From contig NZ_JAFEUV020000009.1 in NCBI RefSeq assembly GCF_017355915.2, forward strand, positions 124,001 through 188,000: a stretch of DNA of 64,000 bases, in the 5' to 3' direction. Origin of the DNA: Telluribacter roseus. Lineage in GTDB: Bacteria; Bacteroidota; Bacteroidia; Cytophagales; Spirosomataceae. The translations under genes and the position numbers were made by a program. Every line of letters starts with the position of its first letter. Position 1 is the first letter of the stretch. This document shows, one piece after another, positions 19,762 through 31,634 of this stretch. Under the pieces are notes generated by a model, which was not told the origin of the DNA, did no database searches, and was given only the letters and a program-made list of their open reading frames with translations.

Positions 19762-22700
19762 ATGAAATTACGTGTACAACTCTCCCCCACCAGCCTTATT
19801 AGCAGGTGGTTTTTCACGACACTATGCCTGATACTGGCTGCCTGTCTGACAGCAGCCGCCCAGACGGTCGTAACCGGACGCGTGACCGACCAGAGCAACG
19901 GTGAGCCCATTCCGGGTGTAAGTGTTATTGTGAAAGGTACCAACTCCGGTACGATCACCGATGCCGAAGGTACTTATAAAGTAAGCCCTACTGGCAGCAC
20001 CCCTACGCTGGTATTCTCGTTTGTCGGATTTTCGACGCAGGAGGTACCTGTCACTAATCAGACCATCATTAACATAGCCCTGAGCCAGGATCTACGTCAG
20101 CTTCAGGAAGTTGTTGTAACGGCGCTTGGTATCAAAAAAGACGTGCGCCGTACGGGTGTAGCCATTCAGACCGTCGACGGTGCCTCAACCATCAAGGCCC
20201 GCGAGCCGAATGCCATCAACGCCCTGACCGGTAAAGTAGCCGGACTTACCGTAGGTACCCAACCCGAGCTGCTGCGCCGCCCCAACATTCAGCTGCGTGG
20301 TAACTCGGATGTCTTGATCGTAGTGGATGGGGTACCCGTTAACTCCGATACCTGGAACGTTAGTCCCGACGACATAGAAACCTATTCGGTACTTAAGGGT
20401 GCTTCGGCTTCGGCCTTGTATGGTTTCCGGGGTAAGAACGGAGCGATCCTGATCACTACCAAGCGTGGCTCTAAGGACAAGCGCGGCTTCTCGGTAGACG
20501 TCAATTCGTCGACTATGGTTGATAACGGCTTCTATGCTATCCCCAAAGTACAGGACGAGTACGGCCCCGGTGACCACGGCCGCTACGCCTTCGTGGACGG
20601 TAAAGGAGGTGGACTTAACGACGGCGACTACGACGGTGGCTGGGGACCCAAGTTTGAAGGCCAACTAATCCCGCAGTACGATAGCCCTATTGACCCCGCT
20701 ACCGGAAAGCGTATTCCTACCCCTTGGGTGGCCCGTGGTACAGACAACCTGACCCGCTTCCTGGAACCAGGTATTCTTTCTACCAACAATGTGTCGGTAT
20801 CCTCTACCGGCGATAAACACAACCTGCGCTTCTCGACTTCGCACATCTTCCAGAAGGGTATAGTACCCAATACCAAGCTGAACATCACCAACTTCAACGT
20901 AACGGCCGACTACAAGTTCTCGGACCGCCTAAAGTTTGAGTCGGGTCTGCAGTACAACCGCCAGTACACGCCTAATACCCCGGATGTAAACTATGGCCCC
21001 AACTCTATCATCTACAACATGGTACTCTGGGCCGGTGCTGACTGGGACGTAGCCGATATGCGCAACTACTGGCAGCCCGGTAAGGAAGGTATCCAGCAGA
21101 TCTACGCGGAGTACCAGCGCTACAACAACCCTTACTTTATGAGCTATGAGTGGCTCCGTGGCCACTACAAGACCGACATCATTGGTCAGGCGGCCATGAC
21201 GTACAAGCTTACGGACTTCCTGGATGTGATGCTGCGTACGCAGGTAACCACCTGGAACCTGTTCCGCAACGAGAAGTTCCCCTACTCGGCGGGCGTGTAT
21301 GGTCGCGATGAGCGCCGCGGCGACTACCGCGAAGACCGCCGTAACCTGTTTGAGAATAATACCGACGTACTGGTGCGGTTTGACAAAGACCTGTTCCCTG
21401 GCCTCAACGCTAAAGTATGGGCGGGAGGTAACGTCCGTAGCTTTGAGTACAGCTCACAGTGGGGCTCTACCGACTACCTCAACGTACCCGGCCTGTACAA
21501 CTTCAGCAACTCGGCCAACCCGGTTCGGACGTCTAACTTTGCCTCGGCCATGCGTGTAAACTCGGCCTACTACTCGGCTGACTTTACCTACAAGGACTAC
21601 TTTACCCTCTCGACTACCGGACGGGTTGATAAACTCTCGACTCTGCCTACTGGTAACAATACATTCTTCTACCCATCAGTAGCTTTGTCTACAGTGCTGT
21701 CTGACTACATTCAGCTCCCGGAGGTTGTATCGTTCTTCAAGCTGCGCGGCTCGTATGCCAACGTGAAGGATGGTCTGACCCGCTCGACCATTGGATCTAC
21801 CCCCGCCCTGGGCGAAGGCAACCCACTCGGCTACGGCGACCAGTACTACTCGCCTTACGACGGTCCTACCTACCAGAACGCCGCGGTATACTCGACCCCT
21901 TTTGCCTACAACAACACGCCCGCTGCCTACTTTACCAACACCATGAACAACCCCAACCTGCAGCCTAGCTCGACCTCCCAGTCGGAAGTAGGTCTGGATG
22001 TAAGGGTACTGCAGAACCGGATTGGTCTGGATGTAACGTACTATGTGTCTAACGAAGGTCCACGCATCTTCTCTCTGCCTATCTCTACTACTACGGGCTA
22101 CGGAGCTGCCCTTGTAAATGGTATCAAGACCCGCAAGACCGGCCTGGAAGCCTCACTGACCGGATCGCCGCTGAAGAGTGCCAACGGCCTCAACTGGGAC
22201 GTAGTAGCTAACTACTCTACCTTCAAGGAAGTACTGACGGAGATCTATCCCGGCGTAGACGCCCTTAATGTGTTCTTCAAAGTAGGCGACCGCCTGGATA
22301 AGTTCTATGGCCGTGCCTTCGCCCGTACCAACGACGGACAGATCATCAACGATGCCTCGGGACGCCCCGTGTACCTGCCCGTAAGGCAGTTTCTGGGCCA
22401 CGTGAACCCTAAGTTTGTATTTGGTATCAACAACAAGTTCAGCTACCGCAACGTCAACCTGAGCTTCCAGTTCGACGGCCGCATAGGTGGCGTCATCTCC
22501 AACTACATCCAGCGTCAAACCTTCCGCGGTGGTCGCCATATAGCGCTGGTAGAGGGTGAAATGGGCGAAGCCCGCTACCAGGATTACCTGGGTAACAAGA
22601 CCTGGGTAGGTGAAGGCGTACAGGTAGCTAACAACGCGAGCCTCAACTTCGACTCCGAAGGTAAGATCTCCAACCTGGCTGAGCTGCAATTCACTCCTAA

Positions 22701-23001
22701 TACGACGAAGCAGTTCCTACAAGACTGGGTAAGCCGCTACTACGATTCCGACGAAGGCAACCTCATGAGCCGCTCGTTTGGTATGTTGCGCGAAGTAGTG
22801 GTTGGCTATACACTGCCTGCTTCGCTGCTCTCCAAGACTGGCTTTATCCGTGGTGCTTCTATCTCCTTGGTAGGTCGTAACCTGCTGTACTTTGCCGAGA
22901 AGAAAGACATTGATCTGAACCAGTACATTACCGACGGTAGCTCTGGACTACAGACTCCTTCGACACGTCGCTATGGTGTCAATATCAATCTGACTTTTTA
23001 A
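19762..23001 (+). CDS. SusC/RagA-family TonB-linked outer membrane transporter
   Basis: 1079 residues, the usual SusC length. Signal peptide ending near AAAQ, carboxypeptidase-D-like regulatory domain (about 36-115: VTGRVTDQSNGEPIPGVSV), a TonB-box-like LQEVVVTALG at about 118-126, plug (GKVAGLTV, DGVPVN, LKGASASALYG) and a large beta-barrel with a terminal aromatic strand (INLTF). It takes large nutrients across the outer membrane using TonB energy, with the SusD-like lipoprotein encoded 109 bases downstream as lid. No glycoside hydrolase follows; instead phosphodiesterase and PhnZ-like genes do, so the ligand may be an organophosphorus compound (inference). Confidence 0.95.
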   Translation: MKLRVQLSPTSLISRWFFTTLCLILAACLTAAAQTVVTGRVTDQSNGEPIPGVSVIVKGTNSGTITDAEGTYKVSPTGSTPTLVFSFVGFSTQEVPVTNQTIINIALSQDLRQLQEVVVTALGIKKDVRRTGVAIQTVDGASTIKAREPNAINALTGKVAGLTVGTQPELLRRPNIQLRGNSDVLIVVDGVPVNSDTWNVSPDDIETYSVLKGASASALYGFRGKNGAILITTKRGSKDKRGFSVDVNSSTMVDNGFYAIPKVQDEYGPGDHGRYAFVDGKGGGLNDGDYDGGWGPKFEGQLIPQYDSPIDPATGKRIPTPWVARGTDNLTRFLEPGILSTNNVSVSSTGDKHNLRFSTSHIFQKGIVPNTKLNITNFNVTADYKFSDRLKFESGLQYNRQYTPNTPDVNYGPNSIIYNMVLWAGADWDVADMRNYWQPGKEGIQQIYAEYQRYNNPYFMSYEWLRGHYKTDIIGQAAMTYKLTDFLDVMLRTQVTTWNLFRNEKFPYSAGVYGRDERRGDYREDRRNLFENNTDVLVRFDKDLFPGLNAKVWAGGNVRSFEYSSQWGSTDYLNVPGLYNFSNSANPVRTSNFASAMRVNSAYYSADFTYKDYFTLSTTGRVDKLSTLPTGNNTFFYPSVALSTVLSDYIQLPEVVSFFKLRGSYANVKDGLTRSTIGSTPALGEGNPLGYGDQYYSPYDGPTYQNAAVYSTPFAYNNTPAAYFTNTMNNPNLQPSSTSQSEVGLDVRVLQNRIGLDVTYYVSNEGPRIFSLPISTTTGYGAALVNGIKTRKTGLEASLTGSPLKSANGLNWDVVANYSTFKEVLTEIYPGVDALNVFFKVGDRLDKFYGRAFARTNDGQIINDASGRPVYLPVRQFLGHVNPKFVFGINNKFSYRNVNLSFQFDGRIGGVISNYIQRQTFRGGRHIALVEGEMGEARYQDYLGNKTWVGEGVQVANNASLNFDSEGKISNLAELQFTPNTTKQFLQDWVSRYYDSDEGNLMSRSFGMLREVVVGYTLPASLLSKTGFIRGASISLVGRNLLYFAEKKDIDLNQYITDGSSGLQTPSTRRYGVNINLTF

Positions 23002-23027
23002 GTAAAGGAGAAAGGGCGGCCGCCGCG

Positions 23028-23069
23028 CGGAAGAGAGGAGAAAAGAAGGAAGGAAGGAAAGGAGAAAAG
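23028..23069 (+). repeat. Purine tract between susC and susD
   Basis: About 42 bases of nearly pure A/G (GGAAGAGAGGAGAAAAGAAG and on), preceded by a GC-rich stretch with a GCGGCCGC site at 23016-23023. It occupies most of the 97-base spacer before the SusD gene. It may act as a ribosome standby or RNA-binding region that sets the susC to susD expression ratio. Function unproven. Confidence 0.45.
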
Positions 23070-23110
23070 GCTATATGCCTTGAAATACAAACTATTAAAT
23101 GCTACTAACA

Positions 23111-24706
23111 ATGAAAGTAAAGAATTATATACAGCTTGCCCTGATCGGTGTCGGCCTCGTACTAACGAGCTGCGAAAAGAGCTTCGAGGAACTCGAAAAA
23201 GACCCGAACCGGGCCGTTACCGCCCCTGCTTCGCTGGTACTGCAGGGCATTGAGTTTGACATGTACAACAACACGGGCCGTCCGTTCAGCTCCGAAATGC
23301 GCTGGAACCAGTTCTACGCTATCAACTACAACTACTACGGCAACAACGAGTACCAGTGGTCGGAGATGCCCAGCCACTTCTATACACTCAAGAACGTAGT
23401 AAAGATGGAGCAGGAAGCCAAGCGCGCAGGTGCGGCCGATGTAAACCCTTACTCGGCCCTGGGTAAGTTCTTCCGGGCTTTCTTCTACGATCAGATGAGC
23501 GCCCGCGTGGGGGATCTGCCCCTGTCGGAAGCGCTGCAGGGTACTGCGGTCATTACACCTAAGTACGATTCGCAGAAGGACATCTACCTGCAGGTACTGA
23601 AATGGCTGGATGAGTCAAATGCTGACCTGACGGCGCTGATTGCAAAAGGTGAAACTTCCGTAGCGGGTGACTTCTACTTCGGGGGCGACTTGCGCAAATG
23701 GCAGAAGGTAGTTAACGCTTTCAAGCTCCGTGTACTGACCCGCCTGAGCAAAAAGGAGGGCGAAGCCGAGTTGAACATCAAAGGTCGCTTTGCCGAAATG
23801 CTGAACAACCCGGCTCAGTACCCTCTGCTTTCGGGCATGGGTGATAACCTTGAGTTCCGTTTCAATAACTTCAACAAGTACCCTTCCAACCCTGACAACT
23901 TTGGTTTTGATGCTACCCGCCAGAACATGGCTCAGCTGTACATCAGCCTGCTGACCGAGCGTAAGGACCCGCGGGTAATGGTAACCGCCGAACCGGCCGG
24001 TGCCGAACTAAAAGCCGGTAAGCAGCCCTCTGACTTTACAGCCTTCGTAGGAGCCAGCTCCGGTGAAGACCTGGCCGATATGTCGGAGAAGGCAGGACGT
24101 AACAACGGAGCCGGATTTGCCCCCGGTGCGTACTCCTTCCAGAGTCGCTCACGCTACTACACCACCTACACCGGCGAGAATGTATTCATCGTAGGGTACC
24201 CTGAGATGTGCTTCAACATAGCCGAAGGTATTAACCGCGGCTGGGCTACCGGCGAGGCCGAAGACTGGTACATCAAGGGAATCCGGGCGTCACAGGAGTT
24301 CTACGGCGTGAAAGACGGTACCCTTACCATGACGTACTCCAAAACCGGTGGTCGCGATGCAGCTGACTTTGCCCGCTACACCATTGACTTCAACTTTGAT
24401 ACCTACTACGCGCAGCCGCTGGTGAAGTACAGTGGCAACACCGTAGCCGGACTCGAACAGATCATTACGCAGAAGTACCTGGCCTTCTTCATGAACTCAG
24501 GTATGGAAGCCTACTTCAACTACCGCCGTACGGGCTTCCCCAAGTTCCTGACGGGCGTGGGTACTGGCAACTCCGGCCGGATAGCCATGCGCTGGCAGTA
24601 CCCTTTCTCGGAGCGTACCACCAACGAAGCCAACTACAAATCAGCCATCGAGCGTCAGTACAGTGGTAAAGACGATATCAATGATCTGGTTTGGATACTG
24701 AAATAG
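23111..24706 (+). CDS. SusD/RagB-family outer membrane lipoprotein
   Basis: 531 residues from ATG 23111 (MKVKNYIQLALIG). A lipobox LVLTSC around residues 15-20 marks a lipoprotein on the outer membrane surface. The body is alpha-helical with TPR-like features and the Tyr/Trp-rich ligand-binding segments of SusD homologues (FRAFFYDQMSARVGDLPLSEA, GYPEMCFNIAEG). It caps the SusC-like barrel encoded upstream. A strong terminator follows at 24748, which suggests that the phosphodiesterase gene beyond has its own promoter or depends on read-through. Confidence 0.93.
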   Translation: MKVKNYIQLALIGVGLVLTSCEKSFEELEKDPNRAVTAPASLVLQGIEFDMYNNTGRPFSSEMRWNQFYAINYNYYGNNEYQWSEMPSHFYTLKNVVKMEQEAKRAGAADVNPYSALGKFFRAFFYDQMSARVGDLPLSEALQGTAVITPKYDSQKDIYLQVLKWLDESNADLTALIAKGETSVAGDFYFGGDLRKWQKVVNAFKLRVLTRLSKKEGEAELNIKGRFAEMLNNPAQYPLLSGMGDNLEFRFNNFNKYPSNPDNFGFDATRQNMAQLYISLLTERKDPRVMVTAEPAGAELKAGKQPSDFTAFVGASSGEDLADMSEKAGRNNGAGFAPGAYSFQSRSRYYTTYTGENVFIVGYPEMCFNIAEGINRGWATGEAEDWYIKGIRASQEFYGVKDGTLTMTYSKTGGRDAADFARYTIDFNFDTYYAQPLVKYSGNTVAGLEQIITQKYLAFFMNSGMEAYFNYRRTGFPKFLTGVGTGNSGRIAMRWQYPFSERTTNEANYKSAIERQYSGKDDINDLVWILK

Positions 24707-24747
24707 ATCCACACTACTTTTTCTCATAGGTTTGGTTATAGACTTAA

Positions 24748-24777
24748 AGCGGGGGCTCTTTGATCCCCCGCTTTTTT
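24748..24777 (+). terminator. Rho-independent terminator after susD
   Basis: Stem AGCGGGGG/CCCCCGCT with a nine-base loop and a run of six T, 41 bases past the SusD stop. Confidence 0.9.
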
Positions 24778-24838
24778 GACACCTGTTCCTTTCCTATCTT
24801 TCACTAACTCAATCTCCCCTACCTATACCTCCACTAGT

Positions 24839-25765
24839 ATGAAATATCTGCTATTCCTATCCCTCTTTATACTCTCGTTCCACCTGCAGGCCCAGCCGGG
24901 TGCGGCCCAACCAAACGTGGCCCGGCCGGGTGCGGCCCAGCCCCGGCACGTTATTGTGATAGGCATCGATGGGTTGAGCCCTGATGGGATACAGAAGGCT
25001 TCTACGCCGGTGCTGGACTCCCTGATCAAGTCAGGAGCCTATTCCTTCAATGCCAAAGCGGTATATCCTTCATCGAGTAGTCCCAACTGGGCGTCCATGA
25101 TCACAGGTACCTCCCCCGCCCACCACGAAATATGGTCCAACGAATGGAAGCGTACGGACATGGCCAACCGGAGCTACTGCGGCGGCGCCAATGGGCAGCT
25201 ATTCCCGACTATTTTCCGGGTAGTACGGGAAAAGATGCCGCAGGCCACCATTGCTACTTTTTACGATTGGGATGATTTTGGAAGGCTACTCGAAGATGAT
25301 GTATGTACCGTCAAAGAAGACCGTAAGGGAGAAGATGATACCGCCCAGCGTGCCGCCGGGTACATCGCCAAAGAGAAACCCGTCTTTACCTTCATCCACC
25401 TCGACCACGTAGACCACGCCGGCCACGAAAGCGGACACGGCACCCCCGTCTACTATGCCTCGGTAAGTAAAGCCGACTCGCTCATCGGGCAGGTTATGAA
25501 CGCGGTACGCCGGGCCGGTATGACCAACGAAACGGTGGTGATAGTAACGGCTGACCATGGCGGCATCAACAAAGGCCATGGTGGTACCACCCCCGCCGAG
25601 ATTAATATTCCCTGGATCATATCGGGTAAAGGTATCCGGAAAAATGTACGTTTGCAGCAGCCAATCGATACCTTTGATACGGCCGTAACGGTAGCGCACC
25701 TTTTCCGGGCTACCCCACCTGCCTGCTGGACGGGTAAGCCGGTACTTGAAGCTTTACAGAAGTAA
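24839..25765 (+). CDS. Secreted nucleotide pyrophosphatase/phosphodiesterase-family enzyme
   Basis: 308 residues from ATG 24839; signal peptide MKYLLFLSLFILSFHLQAQ, then an Ala/Pro/Gln-rich linker with a repeated PGAAQP unit. The rest is an alkaline-phosphatase-superfamily domain of the type I phosphodiesterase/NPP kind: metal ligand in GIDG, likely Ser nucleophile in YPSSSSPNW (Thr in most NPPs), then HLDHVDHAGHESG, TADHGG and KGHGG, which provide the two zinc sites. It would cleave phosphodiester, pyrophosphate or phosphonate-type bonds outside the cytoplasm. Located between SusCD and the PhnZ-like gene. Shorter than animal NPPs but normal for bacterial single-domain forms. Confidence 0.88.
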   Translation: MKYLLFLSLFILSFHLQAQPGAAQPNVARPGAAQPRHVIVIGIDGLSPDGIQKASTPVLDSLIKSGAYSFNAKAVYPSSSSPNWASMITGTSPAHHEIWSNEWKRTDMANRSYCGGANGQLFPTIFRVVREKMPQATIATFYDWDDFGRLLEDDVCTVKEDRKGEDDTAQRAAGYIAKEKPVFTFIHLDHVDHAGHESGHGTPVYYASVSKADSLIGQVMNAVRRAGMTNETVVIVTADHGGINKGHGGTTPAEINIPWIISGKGIRKNVRLQQPIDTFDTAVTVAHLFRATPPACWTGKPVLEALQK

Positions 25766-25779
25766 TCAGCAGTGAGTTA

Positions 25780-25880
25780 TTAGGCATTAGGTATTAGCTA
25801 TTAGTATGTCGTAGTAACCACCTCAAAGCTAAATGCTAACCCCTAATTACTAACAACCTAACTGCTAACAACCTACTAGC
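25780..25880. repeat. TTAG/CTAA-rich imperfect inverted and direct repeats
   Basis: The spacer between the phosphodiesterase and PhnZ-like genes has TTAG-rich sequence in its first half and CTAA-rich sequence in the second, so the two halves are loosely complementary. CTAACAACCTA occurs twice (25850-25860 and 25865-25875). It may be a simple-sequence spacer; function unknown. Confidence 0.4.
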
Positions 25881-25884
25881 TCCC

Positions 25885-26451
25885 ATGCCCCACACTACCG
25901 ACGATACCCTGCACGATCTACGCGGCCTGTTTGAACAGTTCGGCCGTGAGCCCTACTACGGTGAAGAGGTGTCGCAGTTTGAGCATGCCGCCCAGGCGGC
26001 CGAATTGGCCCGAAAGGCGGGCTACGACGAAGAGGTACAGCTGGCGGCGTTTCTGCACGATATTGGTCACATGCTGCCGGTGGATGATCAGGCAGAGCTA
26101 ATGGAAGGCTACGGCAGACGCGACCACGAGGGTGTAGCCGCCGACTGGCTGCGCAAGCGAGGCTTTTCGGATAAGGTAGGTGTGCTGATTGAGAATCATG
26201 TCAATGCCAAAAGGTACCTGACCTACAAGCACCCGGAGTACCTGGCGGCCCTGTCGCACGCCAGTCTGCAGACGCTGGGCTTTCAGGGTGGACCCATGCA
26301 GGCCGAAGAAGCCGAAGCCTTTGAGCAGAATCCAGAATTTGAGCTGATCATCCGGATGCGCCGCTGGGACGAAGCCGCCAAGATGCAGAACTACCCGACC
26401 CCTGACGTAGATCACTACCTCGACATGGTCAGAAAGTACCTTAATGCGTAA
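25885..26451 (+). CDS. PhnZ-like HD-domain diiron oxygenase
   Basis: 188 residues. As I recall it, PhnZ cleaves the C-P bond of 2-amino-1-hydroxyethylphosphonate with O2 at a mixed-valent diiron site. The match covers the whole chain: Y24 and E27 (YYGE) of the substrate-gating pair, then iron ligands H34 (QFEHA), H58-D59 (FLHDIGH), H81 (RRDHEG), H105 (IENHV) and D162 (RRWDE), with the family hallmark GFQGGPM at 132-138. Spacing is almost identical to PhnZ. The usual partner PhnY is not in the window. The substrate may be a phosphonate or another hydroxylated compound, as related oxygenases differ. Confidence 0.85.
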   Translation: MPHTTDDTLHDLRGLFEQFGREPYYGEEVSQFEHAAQAAELARKAGYDEEVQLAAFLHDIGHMLPVDDQAELMEGYGRRDHEGVAADWLRKRGFSDKVGVLIENHVNAKRYLTYKHPEYLAALSHASLQTLGFQGGPMQAEEAEAFEQNPEFELIIRMRRWDEAAKMQNYPTPDVDHYLDMVRKYLNA

Positions 26452-29009: not shown

Positions 29010-29096
29010 TAGCGTACCACTTTATAAGAAATAGGCATGAGCCGTAGGTGTAAAAGCCACACATTGCAGTCTATATTTCTAAAATCGATCCAATCC

Positions 29097-31634
29097 ATGC
29101 GCTTTTTATACCTGTTCCTGCTATTTCTCTGCTCTCTGCGTCTTGATGCTCAACCGGTCTCGACCACCAAGCCCTGGACCCAGTGGTGGTGGATGGGTAG
29201 TGCCGTTACCAAAGAGGATATCACCACGCAGCTGCAGCAGTTATCCAAAGCGGGTATGGGAGGCGTGACCATCATTCCTATCTACGGCGTCAAAGGGCAC
29301 GAGCAGCAGTTTATTCCCTATCTGAGCGACAAGTGGCTGGATGTGATGCAGCATGCCGTTCGTGAAGGCCAGCGGCTGGGCATGGGGGTGGACATGGCTA
29401 CGGGTACCGGCTGGCCCTTTGGCGGCCCCAACGTCAGCAAAGAACTGGGGGCACAAAAGTGGAAAGTAGTGGAAGGCAAACTGGTTGCTGAACCTACCCG
29501 CCAGCAGGTGAAGCGATCAGCGCCCGGTGGTGAGGGGCTGGTACTTGATCCATTTAGTGCGGGTGCCATGGACAAGTACCTGGTCTGGTTTGATTCGGCT
29601 TTTGCCAAAACCAAGACCCGTCCCCGCGCCATGTACAACGACTCATATGAGGTGTACGGCGCCAACTGGGCGCACGATTTTCTGACCGAGTTCAAGAAAC
29701 GCCGGGGCTACGACCTGCAGCAGCAACTCCCCCACTTCCTGGACAGTACCTCCAGCGTGCAAAGTACCCTGGTCAAAATAGATTACCACCAGACGCTCGC
29801 CGAGCTCCTACGGGAGCACTACGCCCGCCCTTGGATACAGTGGAGCCGCAAGCACGGCTTCGTGACCCGCTACCAGGCCCACGGCTCACCCGGTAACCTG
29901 CTGGACCTGTACGAGGAAGCCGACATACCCGAAACCGAAGCCTTCGGTACCAGCAAGTTTCCTATCCCCGGCGTCCACATTGACCCCGACTATGAGGTAG
30001 ACCGCTTTGGGGCTCCTCATCCGCTGGCAATGAAGTTTGCGTCGTCGGCAGCCCATTTTTCGGGCAAAAAATTGGTAAGCTCTGAAACGGCTACCTGGCT
30101 GGCCAACCACTTTAAAGTAGCTCTGTCGCAGGTAAAGCCCCAGATCGATGAACTGTTTACGGGCGGTATCAACCATATCTTCTACCACGGTACTACCTAC
30201 TCGCCCGCCCGTGCAGACTACCCCGGCTGGTTATTCTACGCCTCCACCAACTTTGGACCTACCTCCCACTTTTTTGAGCACCTTCACTTACTCAACGGGT
30301 ACATCGAGCGTTGCCAGAGCCTGCTGCAAAACAGTCAGCCCGACAACGACGTACTGGTTTACTTCCCTATCCACGATCTGTGGGCCAAGCCTGCCAAGTC
30401 GTCGGGAGGTATCCACCAGCTGGAAGTACACCACGTGGATCGCTGGCTCCTACAGCTCCCCTTCGGTCAGCTGACCGAGCAACTATGGCGGCAGGGCTAT
30501 GCCTTCGACTTTGTGTCGGATGCGCAGCTGACCCGGCTGAAAGCCGATAAAAACGGTGTAATCAGTACCGGAAGTACCACGTACAAAACGCTCCTCATCC
30601 CCGCCAGTACCTACCTGCCCGAAGAGACGCTGGACCAGCTCATCCGGCTGGCGAACGCAGGTACCAGGATTATCTTTGCCGGGCAAATGCCTGCCTCACC
30701 CGCAGGCTTTCACCAGCACGAGCAGCGTCAGAAGAGCTTTGAGTCCAAGATAAGTACCTTGAAAAGCCTTTCGGCCAATGTATTCGCCACAAATAACTGG
30801 CAGCAAGCTCTGAACCAATACGCAGCTCAGGAGACATGGGCGGAGCAGGGTCTGACCTTTATCCGCAAGAAGCAGAATGGTAATATACTATACTTCATCG
30901 CCAACCTGAACGACCAATTCAAAGAAGGCTGGATCAGGCTGGCTCATCTAAAAGGTCCTATCGAAAAGTACGATCCGCTCACGAATCAGACTACAGTACT
31001 ACCCGCCCGCACCACTGCCGGACAGCCCGAAGTATACCTGAAGCTCCTGCCGGGTCAGTCGTGCTTCCTGCGTGCAGCCACGGCTAAGGGTACTGCCCCG
31101 GCAAGGGTCGCCCCGGCACCCGCTACCAACCAACAGGTACACGCACTGACGGGCCAATGGAAAGTGGATTTTGTAAAAGGGAAACCTTCATTACCTGCCT
31201 CCGCTACTCTGTCTGCACCGCAATCCTGGACCACCACCTCCGACTCCGCCGGGTACTTCACCGGTACCGCGCGCTATACCCTCCGCTTTGACCTGCCCGC
31301 CTCAGTTACCACTAGCAAGAGTGTAACACTGGACCTGGGTGACGTGCGGGAAGTGGCCGAAGTACGCCTCAACGGTAAGCCCATCGGTACGGCCTGGTCG
31401 GTACCCTTTGTGCTGGATATTGCCGGGGGTACTTTGAAGCCCAAAGATAACCTACTGGAAGTAGAGGTTAGCAACCTTTCGGCTAACTACATGCGGCTGG
31501 TGGATAAGCAGTCGCCGGGTTGGAAGAAGTTTTACGACATCAACATCGTCGACATCCAGTACAAGCCCTTCGACGCCTCCAGGTGGGAGCCCATGCCCTC
31601 AGGCCTGCTGGGGCCGGTGCGGTTGGTGTATTAG
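29097..31634 (+). CDS. Secreted glycoside hydrolase, GH106-like (alpha-L-rhamnosidase type)
   Basis: 845 residues from ATG 29097, where the signal peptide MRFLYLFLLFLCSLRLDAQ begins; an upstream in-frame ATG at 29037 would add an improbable 20-residue leader. N-terminal motifs WTQWWWMGSAV, GMGGVTIIPIYGV and DMATGTGWPFGGP are typical of the GH106/PF17132 group. The C-terminus holds a galactose-binding-like jelly roll (about 700-845: LDLGDVREVAEVRLNG, NLLEVEVSNLSANY). It would hydrolyse rhamnosides in the periplasm or outside. It stands alone, not next to a SusCD pair. The specificity is inferred from the family. Confidence 0.82.
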   Translation: MRFLYLFLLFLCSLRLDAQPVSTTKPWTQWWWMGSAVTKEDITTQLQQLSKAGMGGVTIIPIYGVKGHEQQFIPYLSDKWLDVMQHAVREGQRLGMGVDMATGTGWPFGGPNVSKELGAQKWKVVEGKLVAEPTRQQVKRSAPGGEGLVLDPFSAGAMDKYLVWFDSAFAKTKTRPRAMYNDSYEVYGANWAHDFLTEFKKRRGYDLQQQLPHFLDSTSSVQSTLVKIDYHQTLAELLREHYARPWIQWSRKHGFVTRYQAHGSPGNLLDLYEEADIPETEAFGTSKFPIPGVHIDPDYEVDRFGAPHPLAMKFASSAAHFSGKKLVSSETATWLANHFKVALSQVKPQIDELFTGGINHIFYHGTTYSPARADYPGWLFYASTNFGPTSHFFEHLHLLNGYIERCQSLLQNSQPDNDVLVYFPIHDLWAKPAKSSGGIHQLEVHHVDRWLLQLPFGQLTEQLWRQGYAFDFVSDAQLTRLKADKNGVISTGSTTYKTLLIPASTYLPEETLDQLIRLANAGTRIIFAGQMPASPAGFHQHEQRQKSFESKISTLKSLSANVFATNNWQQALNQYAAQETWAEQGLTFIRKKQNGNILYFIANLNDQFKEGWIRLAHLKGPIEKYDPLTNQTTVLPARTTAGQPEVYLKLLPGQSCFLRAATAKGTAPARVAPAPATNQQVHALTGQWKVDFVKGKPSLPASATLSAPQSWTTTSDSAGYFTGTARYTLRFDLPASVTTSKSVTLDLGDVREVAEVRLNGKPIGTAWSVPFVLDIAGGTLKPKDNLLEVEVSNLSANYMRLVDKQSPGWKKFYDINIVDIQYKPFDASRWEPMPSGLLGPVRLVY

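Follow-up and report, generated by a model that had tools for sequence, protein, structure and literature searches.

What would an outer-membrane importer of the SusCD type take up when its neighbours are a phosphoesterase and a homologue of the phosphonate oxygenase PhnZ? SusCD systems have been studied almost wholly as sugar importers, and the question is raised by a locus in the 6.3 Mb genome of Telluribacter roseus, of which we analysed a stretch of 64,000 nucleotides (contig NZ_JAFEUV020000009.1, hereafter C9, positions 124001-188000; the window). An earlier note had read four consecutive genes of the window as SusC, SusD, an enzyme of the phosphodiesterase fold and a PhnZ-type HD-domain oxygenase (HD), and all four are indeed present on the + strand, in that order, at 19762-26451 (Table 1). 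We put at roughly 0.72 the probability that these genes supply the outer-membrane and periplasmic half of a locus for scavenging aminophosphonates, together with a single enzyme of catabolism.

Table 1. Features of the locus and of a companion block on the same contig. Positions are those of the window unless prefixed by C9 (contig positions).
Feature	Position	Strand	Evidence
SusC/RagA-family TonB-dependent outer-membrane transporter	19762..23001	+	TIGR04056, TIGR04057, plug and CarbopepD_reg domains
SusD-like surface lipoprotein, locus-marking orthologue	23099..24706	+	PF12771, E 8.5e-61
Intrinsic terminator in the susD/phosphoesterase gap	24747..24775	+	hairpin with T-tract, GCGGGGG..CCCCCGC-T6
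Secreted alkaline-phosphatase-superfamily phosphoesterase, NPP-like, Ser at nucleophile position	24839..25765	+	PF01663, E 1.3e-33
PhnZ-type HD-domain mixed-valent diiron oxygenase homologue	25885..26451	+	PDB 4mlm, E 3e-40; TIGR03276
Companion block: PhnX-like hydrolase, TIGR03364 FAD oxidase, convergent DUF5690 MFS gene	C9:224299-227480 (L071:9300-12481)		
TIGR03364 FAD oxidase	C9:225110-226252		363.9 bits, cut-off 285.1

Conservation of the gene order

The test set beforehand was whether the gene order is lost in relatives. It is retained: the order SusC-SusD-(phosphoesterase)-HD spans Telluribacter, Persicitalea, Arundinibacter, Emticicia, Spirosoma and Fibrella, and the proteins of the nearest named relative, Telluribacter humicola, are 87-95% identical over SusC, SusD, the phosphoesterase and HD. 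Across the Bacteroidota, we examined 53 distinct HD loci and counted neighbours within 10 kb; the counts are lower bounds because some loci stop at contig ends. SusC and SusD together were found at 44 of the 53 loci and a recognised phosphoesterase at 41, along with an oxidase dependent on flavin adenine dinucleotide (FAD; 38 loci), a transporter of the DUF5690 family (37) and a PhnX-like hydrolase (34). Outside the family to which T. roseus belongs, SusCD accompanies 12 of 13 HD loci.

The linkage can also be followed from the SusCD side. SusC scores 485 bits against TIGR04056 (cut-off 368), and its orthologues adjoin HD in relatives. SusD, which carries the lipobox LTSC, has an orthologue (at least 56% identity) in 14 close genomes, its own included, and in 11 of these the HD gene lies within 8 kb; the next-best SusD match in the T. 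roseus genome itself is only 28% identical. In one genome without HD (G006), the SusD orthologue sits by the PhnX-like and FAD oxidase genes. The spacer between susC and susD (23002-23098) holds an unusually long purine-rich run of the GGAAGGAA type, and a TAnnTTTG-like promoter element recurs 5' of susC in relatives.

The PhnZ-type oxygenase

The HD protein, which is probably cytoplasmic, aligns almost without gaps to PhnZ; it also matches TmpB (PDB 6npa) with an E-value of 1.4e-32. The earlier note had described Y24, E27 and all iron ligands as conserved, and Y24, E27 and the ligands H34, H58, D59, H80, H104 and D161 do align to PhnZ at the stated spacing. In an alignment of the window protein with 46 relatives (PhnZ numbering), no more than one of the 47 sequences departs from PhnZ at any of these eight positions or at H62, K108, S126 and R158, with Y24 of the YxxE loop present in 46 and E27 in all 47. 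The glutamate of this loop touches the amino group of the substrate in PhnZ (PMC8177086). The window protein reaches 213.4 bits against TIGR03276, for which the cut-off is 214.6; of 200 genomes of the family, 68 have a member above that cut-off. The best reading of HD, given that the residues aligned with PhnZ are kept, is that of a predicted phosphonate oxygenase acting on an amino-hydroxyphosphonate.

The same fold and the next genes downstream could also be read in terms of sugars. The HD oxygenase fold is shared by MIOX, whose family PF05153 matches the HD protein weakly, and a protein of family GH106 (alpha-L-rhamnosidase-like) that also has a jelly-roll domain is encoded downstream of HD at 29037-31634, so that the locus might be one for carbohydrate utilisation, in which SusCD serves the rhamnosidase and HD is a MIOX-like sugar oxygenase. 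However, HD has the YxxE loop specific to PhnZ and TmpB, which MIOX lacks (PMC8177086), and a divergent chloride-channel gene separates HD from the GH106 gene, leaving this explanation with hardly any credibility. A linkage of the GH106 rhamnosidase to SusCD and HD was considered and rejected, as it is confined to the closest relatives.

Phosphonate enzymes linked to the locus

In 78 of 138 genomes of the family that have the HD gene, an aminophosphonate-type FAD oxidase of TIGR03364 lies within 20 kb of HD, compared to about one genome expected by chance according to our own estimate. TIGR03364 takes in PbfD1, which oxidises N-methyl-2-aminoethylphosphonate (N-methyl-AEP) and 2-aminoethylphosphonate (AEP) to phosphonoacetaldehyde (PMC10590968). 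T. roseus encodes such an oxidase, above the family cut-off, as the predicted amine-removing enzyme for phosphonoacetaldehyde production. It is part of a companion block located outside the window, about 75 kb downstream of HD on the same contig, with identical spacing in the sister species.

The PhnX-like hydrolase of this block aligns with phosphonoacetaldehyde hydrolase, and the Lys of its GLHK motif matches a residue that is Lys in PDB 2iof and Arg in 2ioh, which we take to be Lys53, the Schiff-base lysine. Its scores are below the cut-offs of both relevant models (TIGR03351, 169 bits versus 218.9; TIGR01422, 100 versus 220). For the DUF5690 protein, a member of the major facilitator superfamily (MFS), a search of PDB sequences with its sequence profile found no relative. 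The top structural match of its predicted model (mean confidence, pLDDT, 80.6) is the human glucose-6-phosphate transporter G6PT, which accounts for 7 of the 10 best matches, with other MFS proteins scoring close behind. The modelled fold fits an organophosphate antiporter.

In another family, a single locus (L119, 4682-13531) brings these themes together in the order SusC-SusD-phosphoesterase (of the alkaline-phosphatase superfamily)-HD-PhnA-PhnY-PhnW, with PhnA, PhnY (here the phosphonoacetaldehyde dehydrogenase) and PhnW all above curated cut-offs. Given that the functions of PhnW, PhnY and PhnA have been tested, this locus is the most direct sign that SusCD and HD take part in phosphonate catabolism.

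The missing hydroxylase and a possible substrate of HD

In the known two-step oxidative pathway, PhnZ acts with the hydroxylase PhnY*, and the four unlinked PhyH proteins encoded by T. roseus, together with the PhnZ-like character of HD, might suggest that one of them completes such an AEP pathway. However, the NCBIfam models of phosphonate hydroxylases match none of the four, none has phosphonate-related neighbours, no TauD protein was found in the genome, and no PhyH family recurs beside HD in relatives; we regard this explanation as highly improbable. The PhyH and TauD searches yielded no candidate for PhnY* or TmpA in the genome, although no search with a PhnY*-specific query was made. The proposal of the earlier note divides in two. 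The kept gene order, and the phosphonate enzymes in relatives and in the T. roseus genome itself, give good support to its reading as a locus for organophosphorus utilisation, whereas a PhnY partner elsewhere in the genome is not supported by these searches, and the partners found instead are the PhnX-like hydrolase, the FAD oxidase and the DUF5690 transporter.

Searches of the genome for PhnW gave only weak matches below the cut-off, and the carbon-phosphorus (C-P) lyase component PhnJ was not found. Given that candidates for PhnY*, PhnW and C-P lyase were not found, the PhnZ homologue may use (R)-1-hydroxy-2-aminoethylphosphonate (R-HAEP) from the environment. This compound was first isolated from a polysaccharide of a soil amoeba, and it is the specific substrate of the ammonia-lyase PbfA, as well as a substrate of PhnZ (PMC8154272). 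Furthermore, PhnZ without PhnY* has been found beside AEP clusters, never together with PbfA, which the discoverers viewed as an alternative way of handling R-HAEP (PMC8154272).

PbfA is present in 40 of 200 genomes of the family, of which 29, all from one genus, lack HD and 11, from genus g31, have it. The genus without HD carries a run of genes for an XRE regulator, a PhnX-like hydrolase, an FAD oxidase, an NPP-like protein, PbfA (730 bits, cut-off 525) and a DUF5690 protein (L108:7937-14965, where the XRE regulator is annotated; L109:8477-14273), which is a candidate R-HAEP cluster without SusCD. Because 11 genomes with PbfA also have HD, the two tend to replace each other but do not always do so. 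From this line of reasoning, we infer that R-HAEP would be the substrate of HD.

The secreted phosphoesterase

The listed start of the phosphoesterase, a TTG at 24776, is probably wrong because the ATG at 24839 opens a clean signal peptide (MKYLLFLSLFILSFHLQAQ). The closest solved relatives of the enzyme are the Xanthomonas NPP (PDB 2gsn) and ENPPs. Across eight aligned sequences, the Asp and His residues of the metal site are conserved, as is the Asn of NPP (Asn111), whereas a Ser occupies the position of the nucleophile Thr of NPP phosphodiesterases; the final metal-site His lies just a few residues past the DH motif. The match to the PhnA model is only 33.6 bits (cut-off 407.6). Structure prediction with only five sequences gave a mean pLDDT of 54, too poor to use. 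In another genus, relatives 45-50% identical to the window's enzyme adjoin genes for HAD, FAD oxidase, PbfA and MFS proteins.

In other relatives, the same slot is taken by a calcineurin-type phosphoesterase with a Tat signal or by a different protein of the alkaline-phosphatase superfamily. Such swaps between unrelated or distantly related phosphoesterases suggest that the conserved function is the release of a phosphorus-oxygen ester. Relatives often carry an extra beta-propeller phosphoesterase at the locus; for instance, at L048:10542-13340 and similar loci, a fusion of about 930 residues between a beta-propeller and a PF04185 phosphoesterase recurs beside HD and is a candidate secreted phosphoesterase of the pathway.

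Two local features of this gene were also observed. The linker after the signal peptide (24890-24950) repeats PGAAQP(N/R) in Telluribacter and is missing in relatives, L045 and L076 among them; a recent repeat expansion is probable. The spacer between the phosphoesterase and HD genes (25766-25884) contains degenerate short repeats of the TATTAGC and TAACAACCTA types that occur nowhere else in the window.

A phosphoesterase of this kind raises the question of whether the locus scavenges organophosphates in general. In Flavobacterium, PusCD loci combine SusCD with phosphodiesterases and phosphomonoesterases; depletion of phosphate induces them, and some lie beside phosphonate-degrading enzymes (PMC8115612). 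A locus of this type in T. roseus would obtain phosphate from phosphodiesters such as nucleotides, lipid head groups and teichoic acids, with HD as a neighbour for occasional phosphonates. NPP relatives are mostly diesterases, and a phosphocholine-specific phospholipase C is added in some relatives (L051), both points in favour of such a role. However, the HD, FAD oxidase, PhnX-like and MFS genes recur with the SusCD orthologue and the NPP-like gene, the association persisting even where HD is lacking, and we consider general organophosphate scavenging unlikely.

A proposed aminophosphonate-scavenging pathway

The gene identities, the conserved active sites, the linkage kept in relatives and the companion block elsewhere on C9 can be arranged into a pathway across the cell envelope, in which each substrate assignment is a prediction from homology and gene context. 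SusCD would capture and import an ester-linked or oligomeric aminophosphonate, for instance, a phosphonolipid head group or a phosphonoglycan fragment. In the periplasm, the secreted phosphoesterase (NPP-like here, calcineurin-type or another member of the alkaline-phosphatase superfamily in relatives) would cut the ester bond and free the aminophosphonate, which the DUF5690 protein, as a putative organophosphate-antiporter-type transporter, would move to the cytoplasm. Once inside, AEP or N-methyl-AEP may be converted by the FAD oxidase and the PhnX-like hydrolase via phosphonoacetaldehyde to acetaldehyde and phosphate, whereas the PhnZ-type oxygenase may turn (R)-1-hydroxy-AEP into glycine and phosphate with no need for PhnY*. 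Flow would thus run inwards from the outer membrane, possibly under the control of phosphate.

A more specific version, which we put forward tentatively and hold to be somewhat improbable as a whole, is a dedicated trans-envelope route for R-HAEP conjugates, such as amoebal phosphonoglycan. It would comprise import by SusCD, a secreted phosphonate-ester hydrolase, the DUF5690 antiporter and PhnZ without PhnY*, with PbfA as the equivalent in the sister genus.

Several observations weigh against an aminophosphonate-scavenging locus. The catabolic block of T. roseus is not adjacent to the window genes but lies at the distance given above. The idea that HD and PbfA strictly exclude each other had to be rejected, both being present in genus g31. 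The substrates of the phosphoesterase could be phosphate diesters and not phosphonate esters, and the predicted MFS fold of DUF5690 does not give a substrate, with other MFS proteins matching the model nearly as well as G6PT. SusCD pairs abound in these genomes, so that loose matches in distant families have limited weight, and a weakly similar pair outside the family is worth less as evidence than an orthologue within it. The terminator that the earlier note had placed 3' of susD is real (hairpin, -18.7 kcal/mol; z, -3.7), which makes separate transcription of susCD plausible and suggests more than one transcript for the four genes; over the region as a whole, the count of terminator-like sites is not above chance. 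Finally, neither a PHO box nor a regulator was found at the window locus: upstream of susC, the best match to the E. coli-type PHO box was no better than in shuffled sequence, although that consensus may not be the one used by Bacteroidota.

Comparison with known systems

For complex phosphonates, amoebal phosphonoglycans among them, uptake across the outer membrane has apparently not been described so far: none of the open-access papers searched names both PhnZ and SusD. If the proposed pathway is correct, the range of SusCD would extend to phosphonates through a conserved module tied to C-P bond chemistry, DUF5690 and several orphan phosphoesterases would gain candidate functions, and a reason would suggest itself for the occurrence of PhnZ genes without PhnY*. 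Soil and freshwater Bacteroidota would then be possible consumers of complex phosphonates, including those of amoebae.

Individual components of the locus have recognisable counterparts. The secreted phosphoesterase shares the metal site of the alkaline-phosphatase superfamily with the Xanthomonas NPP and the phosphonoacetate hydrolase PhnA, and the Asn with NPP, but has a Ser where NPP has its nucleophile Thr, is shorter and is secreted. With the PhnY*-PhnZ and TmpA-TmpB pathways, the locus has in common a homologue of the HD mixed-valent diiron oxygenase that keeps every metal ligand as well as the YxxE loop; in contrast to these pathways, no hydroxylase partner was found, and enzymes of a hydrolytic pathway are linked instead, together with SusCD. 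The hydrolytic PbfD/PbfA-PhnX clusters share the TIGR03364 FAD oxidase and the PhnX-family HAD hydrolase (PMC10590968, PMC8154272), and PhnZ without PhnY* has been reported beside AEP clusters from which PbfA is then absent (PMC8154272); in T. roseus, PhnW was not found, whereas a SusCD import system and a secreted phosphoesterase are added.

At the level of the whole locus, the closest parallel is with the PusCD loci PUSI and PUSII of Flavobacterium johnsoniae (PMC8115612), both systems combining SusCD with secreted phosphoesterases and not with glycoside hydrolases. The core of the present system is instead made up of the PhnZ-type oxygenase, the TIGR03364 oxidase, the PhnX-like hydrolase and DUF5690. 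We regard the locus as a new variant of the Bacteroidota phosphate-utilisation (Pus) loci with a defined aminophosphonate module.

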